From Pseudomicrostroma phylloplanum (taxonomy: Eukaryota; Basidiomycota; Exobasidiomycetes; Microstromatales): DNA of 64,000 nt. This document shows positions 6,087 to 43,987 of the stretch, piece by piece. The notes under the pieces were generated by a model that saw only the letters and a list, made by a program, of their open reading frames with translations, was not told the origin of the DNA and searched no databases. Numbering within the stretch: position 1 is the first letter of the stretch; each line of letters starts with the position of its first letter. The translations under genes and the position numbers were made by a program. Where the stretch lies: contig BCHS01000006.1 in the NCBI GenBank assembly GCA_039545275.1, forward strand, positions 744,001 through 808,000, given 5' to 3'.

Positions 6087-8198
6087 ATGTTCAAAGCACT
6101 CAAGCTAGAAGACTTCCCCCTGCTAGAAACGGCAGCTACCGAGGTATCCTCGGTCGCACTCGGAGGCAAGGCCCTTTCTTGCTCCGATGAATGGTTCGCC
6201 CCGGCCTCGGACCTGCTCAAGGTCGAGGCAGCGCCCAGTCTTAAAGGTCAATTCGGTCCCAAGGGGGCTCTGTTCAGCGGCTGGGAGACGAGGCGGCACA
6301 ACCCTGAGCCGACTGACTGGGCGATCATCAGGCTGGGTCCTAAGGCTGGGGCTTCGATTGTAGGCTTCGATGTAGAGTGAGTGCGGGAGTAGTAGGCGCA
6401 GCTGCGAAAGGCCGTAGGTAGAGGTCTGCAGCTCGGATCAATATGTGCTGACCATTCCTCTTTGCCGTCAGCACTGCTCATTTCAACGGTAACGAGGCCC
6501 CCGAGGTGGAAGTGTTTGGCCTTCGAATGCCGGCCGAGGAGGAGGCTGCTGGCTCTGTCCCCGAGCACACTGACAGCAGGGTGAGTGTCAAAGATTAAAG
6601 AACGCTGCAACACCCTTCTTGCGATCGAGCTCATCCGATACGCTCTCCTTTTTACACTTCATAGTGGGAGCCGATCCTACCCCGTGTTCCCTGCGGACCA
6701 TCACAGAGGCACCTCTTCTCTGTGCAACACGAGGGGATTGTCACGCATGTCAAGCTCAACATGATCCCTGATGGTGGTATCGCCAGGTTCCGGGTGTATG
6801 GCAACATCCCCGCTCCTCCTATTGGCCTCGGTGTGACAGAGTCTCAGAGCTCGGACAGTCGTCTGAACTCCCTCGACCTCGCCCATTCCATGAATGGCGG
6901 TCTGGTCGTCTTTACTTCCGACCAGCACTTTGGAAAGGGGCCGAATGTCCTCCTCCCTGGACGAGGTCACGACATGGGCGATGGCTGGGAGACGAAGCGC
7001 AGCAGGACCCCAGGCCACAAGGATTGGCTCGTCATCCAGCTCGGCGAGCCAGGCTTCCTCGACTACTGCGAGATCGATACCGCCCACTTCTTGGGCAACT
7101 TCCCCGCCTCGGTCGAGCTGCACGGTATCGACTCCGACAGTAAGATCCCACCAGGCGCCGAAGATGAAGACGGAGCTGTGCAGGCAGGCTGGACCCAGCT
7201 GCTGGAGAGACAAAAGACGGGACCCGGGAAGCAGCACTTCTTCAAGCTGATCAGCGGTACAGAGAAGCAGAGGTTTAGTCACATCCGCGTTACGATGCAT
7301 CCCGTGAGTAGGGTTCGAAGGCGTGTGAGATGAACGATAGAAGCTTGAGACTCACGGTGTGTTGGAACTCGATGTACTGCCTCTTCAGGACGGAGGCATC
7401 AAGCGTGTTCGCATCGTTGGTCGTCGCGCAGCTCCTCTGGCAAACTACACCGAGCCTCTCCCTCCCCTCTCCCTGCCCGGCTTCACAGACAAGGCCCTCC
7501 CCAGCGAGCCGGTGGTCACTTCGGCATTGGACAGTCTGAGCCAAGCAGCTACAGCAGCGTACAATGCCGTCGCCTCAAAGAGTGGGTCATCATCCGCGCA
7601 GTCGCTCCGAGTGGTCAAGGCCGTACCTCTCACCACTGCCTCTTTCAGTCCCTACGGCCAAGTAATCGCAGGTCCGCCCTCAACTTCTTCAGCCCTGGAC
7701 TCAAGCTCCGTCACAGAATGGCCGCATGCAATTGTCAATCAAGGCACCGCGAAGAAGTACGCTCACCAAGGCCAAATTCACCAATCATTCACCCTAGAAG
7801 CTCAAGCAACCACCAATATGCACCTGTATAGATGTGACTCCCTCCCCTTTTCCTCTCTCCCTCTCCCCCTCAAGATGCTCGAACGCCACCGTTTCTCCAG
7901 CCAGTCCTTTATCCCCCTCCACTCTCCACCCCACCAAGGCCAGTACCTCGTCGTAGTCGCGCACAACGGGCAAGACGATAAGCCCGACCTCTCCACGCTA
8001 GCCGTGTTCCTCGCGAGCGGACAGCAGGGGATCTGCTATCTCCCCGGGATCTGGCATTTGCCTATGACGCCCATTGCACCTGACAATCAGACGACACCGC
8101 TCGATTATGCTTGTATTGTGGCTGAGAGCACCACGCAGCCGGAGTTGAATTGCGATGAGGAGTGGTGGACACAGCCTAGCGTGGCGGTCAGCTTGTAA
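6087..8198 (+). CDS. DAL2-DAL3: bifunctional allantoicase / ureidoglycolate lyase fusion
   Basis: Allantoicase hydrolyses allantoate to ureidoglycolate and urea; ureidoglycolate lyase then releases glyoxylate and urea. Both domains are in one 615-residue product. Exons are 6087-6376, 6472-6580, 6665-7303 and 7389-8198, joined at GTGAGT donors with the frame kept. Residues 1-345 contain the two allantoicase repeats: the first has DEWFAPASDLL, FSGWETRRHN and DWAIIRLG, and the split codon gives DTAHFNGNEAPE; the second has LLPGRGHDMGDGWETKRSR and IDTAHFLGNFPASVELHG. A Ser/Ala-rich linker follows. Residues from about 417 to the end form the lyase domain, with HQSFTLEAQ, MLERH, SQSFIPL and a PGIWHLPM motif. 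Yeast encodes these as separate DAL2 and DAL3. No stop, start or splice signal separates the domains. A nearby GATA site fits nitrogen regulation. Confidence 0.93.
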
Positions 8199-40780: not shown

Positions 40781-42277
40781 TTACACGACTCGGTACTGTG
40801 ACCGGGCCAGTCCAGTCAGCAGCTGTACGCCCGCCTTGGCTCCGTCTATCACCCAGACCTTGTCCAGGGAGCCGCCCGCTTCTTGGATACCTTGCCGCAC
40901 CAGAGGCTCCATCCCTGCCATGCCTGTGCGAAGAAGCCAAAAGTAGATTGTGTGAGTCGAGGTCACCCCTGTCGAGCCTCACTTGCTTCCGTCACAGCAT
41001 CGCTACATTACTCACCTGCACAGCCAAGAATGATCGCTTCCGCACCCTTTTCCAATGCTAGCCTTGCGCTGTCCTCTTTGATCTTACTCTCCACCCTCTC
41101 CTTCGAATTCGGATCGCCCAATTCCAATACGCCCAGACCTGTCGCCACGCAGCCCTTGTAGCGATCCGATACTCCACCAAGATAGGACCGCACGCCGGCG
41201 TCTATGTCGGGGACCATGGCCTTGCCAGTGGTGATGATGCCGAATGTGTTGGCTCCGCAGCTCATGGCGTGATTGATGGCAGTATCGAGGATGTGCATAC
41301 ACGGTATGTGTGGATACTCGTGTCGGATCATGGGCACCAGGGGATGAGCAGAGAAGCAGCAGACGAGGACAGCGGACTTGTCAGACAGAGCTGATGTCCG
41401 CCGCAGGTCATCGAATGTTGTTTGAGCGGAGAGGATCGATGTGGGAGGATCATTGATGGACGGAGGCGCAGAGGGCGGTCCTGTCCTGTAGCTGTGTTTC
41501 ACTCCCCACGCCCTGTTCGGCTCCAAGAGCTGAGCGAGATTGGAGGTAATGACCTGGGCGGTAAGGAGCGTAGATTCGGTCAGCACAAATCGATTCCACC
41601 AGTCTCTGCTAGCCTTACTTCCAGCTCACCTCGCTCGAATTCGGATTGAGGACCATCACATCGACGACCTCGCCTACAACGCCCCCTTGTCCATCATGCC
41701 TGGCATTGAAGTTATTCGCAAAGTGCGCAGCATCTGCCATCGATGCAGCGAGGTCATATCCGTTCGTTTGCGAAAGCCCCAAGGCCGAGGCGCTGGCCTG
41801 ACCCTGCTGTAGAGGATCGTTGCCGTGACTCTGCTGTTGCGCCGCACCGAAGAGGTAGTCCTGTAATGTCGGTGGGTACGCTGCTAGTGGCTGAGAAGAG
41901 GTAGAGGGGTGGTTGGAGGGCGAGCCTCCCGCATCGTGCTGGGTGTAGTCATGCGACAGGCGGAATCCTCCACCCCCGCTGCTGCTCGTACTGGCGCTGC
42001 CGTGATGTGAAGTGTGCTTCGACAGAGGACTGCCATCAGTTTTGACCTTGTCTTGACATTGCCGATGGTGCTTGTGCAATGTCGAGGTGCCTGTGGAGCC
42101 GTCCTTCTTAATCTTGTAGCAGGTATCGCAGTTCAGGCACTTGACTTCCCAGTGCGTATCGCTGATAGATCTACGATCAGTATAATGAGACCAAATACTA
42201 GTCGCAGCTGTGCGAGGCTTCTTGTTGCTGCCATTCATGTGGTCTGAAGGGGCATTGGAGCTAGGAGAGTGATCCAT
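40781..42277 (-). CDS. BED zinc finger fused to Dcg1/hydantoin-allantoin racemase domain
   Basis: Three exons in gene order: 42277-41630, 41553-41016 and 40923-40781, encoding 442 residues. Residues 19-74 have a basic patch (KKPR) and a BED-type finger: W29, HWEVKCLNC with C47/C50, and a LHKHHRQC end with H70/C74. Residues 75-200 are Ser/Gly/Gln-rich. The racemase domain begins in the same exon with VDVMVLNPNSSE, the first beta strand of the Asp/Glu/hydantoin racemase family, and continues across a GTGAGC intron. Both catalytic-type cysteines are present: VCCFSAH (C281/C282) and LGCAGMAG (C394). Bacterial relatives include hydantoin and allantoin racemases. Yeast Dcg1, in the DAL gene cluster, has the racemase part only. 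The finger implies nuclear or DNA-bound location, which is an inference. No stop or alternative ATG separates the two parts except internal Met residues. Confidence 0.88.
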
Positions 42278-42965
42278 GCCACGGGCGGAATGTGTGCTGG
42301 AATAGAGCGGAGAGGTGAAGGTAGTATCGTTTCTTCTGGGTGAAAGGTCGATGGTCAGAGATCGGATTGCAAGAATGAGCTCACTCTACTCGTGGGGATC
42401 ACTCACTTGATGGGCGACCTCAATGCGTGACCGTTGAGGTGGTGATGATCGTGGCTCATACTCGCCTCGAGAAACCCGAGATTGGGGTGAGAGGCGTGAG
42501 AGCTGCCCTCTACGTTGCCCGCTGGTGGTGGAGTGAAGCTTAGATCTCTCTCTCACAGTGAGACCATAGCGTAGGCCAGCTCGGATGGAGTGACTGAGGC
42601 GGGCGACGATGCTATTGTCTATTGTACCATAGAGGTCTTGGGGCTTTATCGGGAGCAGGGATCTGGCACTAGGTTGTAGGAGGAGGGTGTGTGAGTGGCC
42701 TTGGCCGCCGTTGCGTGTGAGTGGTGGCCTCCTTGCCTCGCAACGCTGCCCGTGGAGGAGGAGATTCAAATTCCCACTGCACGGAACGCCAGACGCAACC
42801 ACACCTTGCTTCCTTTCCGGCCACACACTCCGGCGCTTCCGTGCCGATCAGGGTCATCTTGACCTCAGTACTATCAGTAGCTCGTAAGGAGCATGGCATC
42901 GACGTCAGCACCCTCCGGCGTAGTTTCTTAGCCCTGGAAGCCTCACTACCATTTCCGACTCCATC
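42278..42965. promoter_or_regulatory. divergent intergenic region, BED-racemase / ATG16
   Basis: 688 nt between divergent start codons. Minus-strand frames (for example 42386-42826) are open but lack recognisable sequence. A CGATAAA near 42645 would fit a GATA-factor site in either gene's promoter but is a weak match. No tRNA or other RNA gene was supported. Confidence 0.4.
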
Positions 42966-43987
42966 ATGGCCGCCCATGCCGGAGGCTGGCAGGACCTCAT
43001 CGCTCTCCGCCTCACGGAGAGAGATGCAAGAGAGAAGGCTCACGACGACATCATTGCCCACTGTGAGTAGTAGGCAGATCTTCGTCATGCTTGGTGTTGC
43101 TGGGTCTGGCCGGCGACAGCATGCTTGGTACTTCTCAGACTGATGTGACCGGTACACCTCTCTCCCCGAACGTTCCCACATGCAGACCAGAAGCTCGCTG
43201 AACATGCTAGGACGCTGCAGGCTCGCAATCAGAGTATGCTCCAGGCAGCTGGAGTAGGCTCCGCCTCTGGAGCGCCAGCCCAGTCCAAGAGCACCTCTAC
43301 AAGCAATGTGACCCAGAGTAGTACTGAAAGGGGTGCTTCACCAGAGTGAGTGATCATTCTTGCGATATGAAGCTGGTGATCACGATATAGCATGCAGGCG
43401 ACTGATATCACCTTACTGCTCATTTCTCTTGACAGCCACAGCGCCATCCGCCAAAGCTACATCACCTCTCTCGAGTCTCAACTCTCAACCACTCGGGATG
43501 AGCTGGCTTCGGTCTACAAGACGCAGTCACAGAATGCCCAACGATTGCTAGTACTTAATGAGCAGATGAGGGAGAAGGAAGAGGCCGGCAAAGGGGAGGC
43601 TATAGAGCTTAGGAGCCTCAGGGACGAGAGGGAAAGAATGATGAGGAGAGAGAGGGATCTCAGAGATGCGGCAGGAGAGAAGGACAAGGTCATTGAGGTG
43701 AGTAGGAGAGGACGCTCCATCTGACGCTGCGACGTGCGCTGCGCTGACAGTTGCCTGATGTCCCTTGCCCTGGCCTACAGATGCTACAAGACGAGCTTCG
43801 GACTCTCTCCCTGGAGCTCCACCAAGTGGAGTCGAGGAACGATGATCTCAAGCGGGACAATGCCAGTCTACTGCAGCGCTGGCTGGATCGAGCCAGGGAC
43901 GAGGCGGACAAGGTCAACGAGGCCAACCGATACATTGAAGAGGTGGAGAAGCGGAGAAAGGGACATAACAGGGAAGCTGAAGAATGA
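42966..43987 (+). CDS. ATG16: autophagy protein Atg16
   Basis: Four exons, 42966-43062, 43186-43345, 43436-43697 and 43781-43987, give 241 residues. The N-terminal helix reads WQDLIALRLTERDAREKAHD and continues into IIAHYQKLAEHA, the Atg5-binding region. A Ser/Thr-rich spacer follows, then a long coiled coil (about residues 90-235) with heptads through SYITSLESQLSTTRDELASV and LQDELRTLSLELHQVESRND, ending at RWLDRARDEADKVNEAN. Atg16 dimerises through the coil and targets the Atg12-Atg5 conjugate to the phagophore so that Atg8 is lipidated. There is no WD40 domain, as in other fungi; yeast Atg16 is 150 residues. Each exon junction preserves frame with GTGAGT donors. Confidence 0.88.

Follow-up and report, generated by a model that had tools for sequence, protein, structure and literature searches.

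Can a metabolic enzyme and a zinc finger of the type found in DNA-binding proteins form a single protein, and what would such a protein do? The question is raised by a locus in a 64,000-nucleotide stretch of Pseudomicrostroma phylloplanum DNA (contig BCHS01000006.1, positions 744,001 to 808,000; hereafter the window), where a first-pass annotation had placed, at 40781..42277, a BED zinc finger joined to an allantoin/hydantoin racemase domain. Our analysis predicts that finger and racemase are one gene and one polypeptide, in which each domain is intact and conserved across species. The fusion stood and the start at 42277 did not, as the most likely start of the coding region is 42459 (Table 1), judging from splice consensus, an open frame and a weak alignment of exon 1 with the N-termini of two relatives, P0002 and P0003. 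In the splice model the gene has three introns of 71, 76 and 92 nt, all GT-AG. The protein annotated first starts at Met38 of our 479-residue model, and the residues named there as C47, C50, H70, C74, C281/282 and C394 are, renumbered, C84, C87, H107, C111, C318/319 and C431, all present.

Table 1. Features of the finger-racemase gene, in positions of the window.
Feature	Position	Strand	Remark	Basis
Whole coding region with introns	40781..42459	-	4 exons, 479 codons plus stop	Splice model, Pfam
Exon 1	42407..42459	-	17 codons plus 2 bases; absent from the first-pass model	Splice model
Exon 2	41630..42335	-	Remaining N-terminus, finger, linker and first racemase strand in a single open frame	
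Exon 3	41016..41553	-		Splice model
Exon 4, including stop codon	40781..40923	-		Splice model
Basic KKPR stretch	from 42223	-	Precedes the finger	
BED-like finger, W66 to C111	42056..42193	-	Ligands C84, C87, H107, C111	
Linker motif LQDYLFGAA (LQDFLRAA in relatives)	41840..41866	-	Conserved in alignment; predicted helical in P0002	
Asp/Glu/hydantoin racemase domain, residues 242-479	40784..41665	-	Interrupted by introns 2 and 3	
C318 and C319	41356..41361	-	C319 aligned with the first catalytic-type cysteine position of 3QVJ	
C431, second catalytic-type cysteine (LGCAGMAG)	41020..41022	-		

A pattern scan found the finger in five of the 133 homologues fetched, namely P0002 from Sympodiomycopsis kandeliae, P0003 from Jaminaea rosea, and P0001, P0004 and P0007 from environmental assemblies, so the finger is not missing from every close relative. 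That the two halves form one polypeptide is predicted because no intron separates the finger from the first racemase strand (VMVLNPNSSE), which had rightly been placed together in one uninterrupted exon, because P0004 (478 aa) holds finger, linker and both cysteine motifs in a single predicted protein, and because P0003 lacks any Met between finger and strand 1, which leaves no start for a complete racemase after the finger. P0004 ends in LGCAGE, as does the window frame when read into intron 3, and it looks like an unspliced single frame known from a protein record. P0001, which is near-identical to the window over the compared stretch, and P0007 carry finger and strand 1 and end soon after strand 1, as would be expected of frames reading into the intron located after NPNSS in the window gene. 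Each of the two named relatives is annotated as a single protein (528 and 534 aa).

The racemase part is of the Dcg1/allantoin kind that had been proposed, as its domain is closest to allantoin racemases. Pfam Asp_Glu_race (PF01177) matches residues 245-467 with 137.7 bits (gathering cut-off 31, E 6.2e-40), and the predicted model has the two-lobed racemase fold, with solved allantoin racemases as the best fold match. Both racemase cysteines are kept, as had been claimed; C319 and C431 align with the 3QVJ cysteine positions, and they and their flanking motifs do not differ from those of fingerless homologues. Not every family member has the pair, since the 5LFD row has a Gly at the first position in the alignment. 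The window has CFSxHPL in place of the CFGDPGL of 3QVJ, and its substrate may therefore differ.

BED fingers are recognized by C-x2-C-xn-H-x3-5-[H/C] ligands, an N-terminal W and H-F/Y aromatics. The finger here has the ligand pattern C-x2-C ... H-x3-C, and all four ligands are invariant in the five aligned fingers, which also share W66 and a Y or F at residue 69, conserved aromatics N-terminal of the first Cys. The histidine had been chosen correctly, as H107 is invariant and its neighbor H108 is not, being Gln in Jaminaea. The predicted model is beta-beta-alpha; its best structural neighbor is ZBED3 within the mouse SCMC protein complex, and the Hermes BED domain bound to DNA is another. Pfam zf-BED (PF02892), however, matched neither the window protein, nor the five fingers, nor four relatives; a PF02892 search of the genome also gave no match, but its controls were silent too. 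The Jaminaea protein bears the UniRef name 'BED-type domain-containing'. The earlier designation of a BED-type finger thus holds for the ligands and tentatively for the predicted fold, and fails at the level of the Pfam family, and because of the missing zf-BED match the finger is best classed from its sequence as BED-like rather than as a member of PF02892.

The finger appears to be conserved about as strictly as the enzyme, because the identities of the two parts to the window are similar and that of the linker is far lower. For P0002, P0003, P0004 and P0007, respectively, the finger shows 77, 69, 71 and 83% identity, the linker, counted at aligned positions, 37, 41, 32 and 38%, and the N-terminus 45, 40, 37 and 41%, and the racemase is 74, 67 and 70% identical in the first three (P0004 over 192 residues; P0007, with 29 aligned racemase residues, was set aside). 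The recurrence of the finger in five homologues and its identity well above that of the linker speak against a chance resemblance. The linker spans about 130 residues of low complexity, rich in Q, H and A. In P0002 it (residues 128-283) gave a match to Pfam TFIIA below the cut-off (E 0.0002, 21.9 of 36.2 bits), which reflects its Q-rich, regulator-like composition. A long open frame adjoining the uricase gene (C3:507676-508077) has low-complexity similarity to the racemase linker (E 0.154), probably by chance.

Both named finger-carrying species are Microstromatales (Exobasidiomycetes), and the fusion appears lineage-specific, limited to a small group of yeast-like basidiomycete fungi of the Microstromatales type; for species without the finger, the absence depends on their gene models. 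A full-length protein search gave 15 homologues at E <= 0.001; a racemase search, of which the best 120 of 1078 matches were covered, admits proteins of limited length and is thus unable to show full-length fusions. In a tree of the racemase domain (49 rows of 134 available sequences), the fusion rows group with P0016 in a supported clade (100/90), joined next by P0025 and then by a clade with the fingerless Meira (Exobasidiales). The finger state of P0016 and P0025 is unreadable, as both rows start past the intron. One change of state suffices for the finger label when P0016, P0025, P0041 and P0048 (no strand 1) are set aside, and two are needed if the N-truncated P0016 is counted as fingerless. 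Another joined protein among the homologues, P0015 of Aspergillus hancockii (735 aa), links a Dcg1-type racemase to gamma-tubulin and is probably a merged gene model.

The proposal that the finger was captured from a transposase found no support, as no hAT relative of the finger turned up and Pfam zf-BED gave no match. A word-based search for finger relatives returned three matches among 12 candidates, all in the fusion family; it is of limited sensitivity, having failed to pick up P0004, a known relative. No hAT dimerisation domain scored above cut-off in the genome, and no second copy of the finger was found in its 17.08 Mb by a search that scores only the best candidates. The fusion protein itself lacks a hAT catalytic or dimerisation domain, Asp_Glu_race being the only Pfam domain above cut-off. 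The intron after NPNSS seems older than the fusion, because the fingerless P0006 and P0038 show apparent intron readings at the same spot, and the finger would have been gained in the exon ending at this intron or upstream of that exon.

The organism seems able to use uric acid and allantoin, and an allantoin racemase makes sense in a genome equipped in this way. Only one racemase-family locus was found in the genome (best candidates scored). Uricase is present (C3), and a candidate PuuE-type allantoinase, polysaccharide-deacetylase-like, lies at C1:1996409-1997365 (TIGR03212 positions 2-296 of 297, 319.9 bits, below the cut-off of 424.6). Allantoinases of the PuuE type are S-specific. No Dal1-type allantoinase matched above cut-off in the genome. 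In the window, allantoicase exons are followed by a ureidoglycolate lyase domain, apparently in the same gene (about 6087-8198, forward strand; a fusion of the Dal2-Dal3 type), much like the DAL2,3,3 gene of Cryptococcus in the available text of PMC3646786; no other allantoicase locus was found in the genome, and the racemase fusion lies 32.6 kb away. The chance that a random gene lies within that distance is about 0.004, or about 0.01 after allowing for three pathway genes, and we dropped the linkage as functional evidence because the test was made after the linkage had been seen. A shared promoter motif was likewise rejected: the upstream regions of the racemase, allantoicase, uricase and allantoinase genes share one 7-mer (0.57 expected; reached in 84 of 200 shuffles) and no 8-mer, in a weak test with two of the four starts uncertain.

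Since both halves are conserved, the enzyme may work, or sense its substrate, at DNA. We tentatively favor, at somewhat less than an even chance, a racemase held at DNA by its finger that couples ureide status to transcription. A fungal Dcg1-family enzyme of the allantoin/hydantoin racemase fold would have acquired, in a single event and within its first exon, a BED-like finger at the N-terminus together with a flexible linker rich in Q, H and A; the KKPR stretch and the finger would take it to the nucleus and to DNA; the racemase domain, from a family of two-cysteine proton-transfer enzymes, would still be active, and its assembly would bring the fingers together as a multivalent DNA binder. 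When an allantoin-like hydantoin is bound or turned over, contact with DNA or a coactivator could then change, and the protein would couple purine-ureide nitrogen status to transcription as a trigger enzyme made by gene fusion. We infer zinc binding, nuclear entry, DNA binding, activity, ligand and regulation of the fusion protein. A more specific version, possible but doubtful, is that a racemase oligomer presents several fingers and that its active-site state (allantoin or hydantoin bound, or enantiomer turnover) switches ureide nitrogen genes, for example the allantoicase-ureidoglycolate lyase gene 33 kb away, in one fungal order.

The main rival, unlikely on balance though one to be taken seriously, is that the finger is a protein-interaction or targeting module docking an ordinary allantoin racemase, which feeds the S-specific allantoinase, to a partner or compartment. 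The finger departs from Pfam zf-BED, its nearest structural neighbor ZBED3 sits in a protein complex, and with a sole racemase found in the genome and its cysteines kept, the ancestral metabolic duty would fall on the fusion protein. However, a KKPR-type stretch with a finger and a long linker rich in Q, H and A is the kind of layout that transcription regulators tend to have, and the DNA-bound Hermes domain is among the structural neighbors. The protein could also be a regulator whose racemase fold is a pure ligand sensor without turnover, since sensors are known to arise when an enzyme fold is fused to a DNA-binding-type domain, but the unchanged cysteines and surrounding motifs and the lack of a second racemase found to take over catalysis make this improbable. 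Less probable again is that the gene yields two products, an enzyme without the finger, made from a start or promoter inside the gene, and a separately expressed finger. Met217 and Met245 of the window protein lie between finger and strand 1 and would allow for the start inside the linker that the first-pass annotation had considered, but such a start is excluded in Jaminaea, and the single proteins of P0004 and the two named relatives argue against separate expression. An artefact of assembly or gene model has next to no chance and is already refuted for the finger-strand 1 joint, which recurs in independent sources, the S. kandeliae and J. rosea records and the environmental assemblies of P0001, P0004 and P0007.

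Both parts are of known kinds, and annotation of their combination goes no further than a database name; we found no description of it in searches of an open-access library, and the available part of PMC8142540 does not mention a finger fusion. The fusion shares the whole domain, both cysteines and the fold with fungal Dcg1 and the allantoin-hydantoin racemases (PF01177; 5LFD, 5LG5, 3QVJ; yeast DCG1, termed allantoin racemase in the available text of PMC3646786), but fingerless Dcg1 relatives start 2-46 residues before strand 1 in 39 of 41 readable rows, whereas the fusion has about 240 residues there, with the finger. OpaE of Aspergillus ustus (PDB 9QBX), like the fusion a fungal Asp/Glu-family racemase with a Cys/Cys pair, is the only well-characterised fungal member of the family according to the available text of PMC12661438. 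The ligands and aromatics are shared with the BED fingers of ZBED3, ZBED2 and the Hermes transposase, and the predicted beta-beta-alpha model may match theirs; unlike those, the finger has no zf-BED match, is not followed by a transposase and precedes an enzyme. PAPS reductase A of Tuber melanosporum is likewise a fungal metabolic enzyme with a variant-specific extension, which confers nuclear, transcription-activating behavior; that extension is a C-terminal transactivation peptide, whereas ours is an N-terminal, predicted zinc finger (PMC4848566, available part).

Little is known of what Dcg1 proteins do in fungi, and a lineage in which the enzyme and a nucleic-acid-type finger are joined and both constrained gives direct access to the question. 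Should the finger bind DNA, the genes it targets would show the racemase's pathway and ligand, and the protein would be a clear example of a metabolic enzyme turned into a regulator through gain of a finger within one exon, with no whole regulator captured. A fragment of an ATG16-type autophagy gene (PF08614), divergent from the racemase gene, lies at 43380-43724 of the window on the forward strand.
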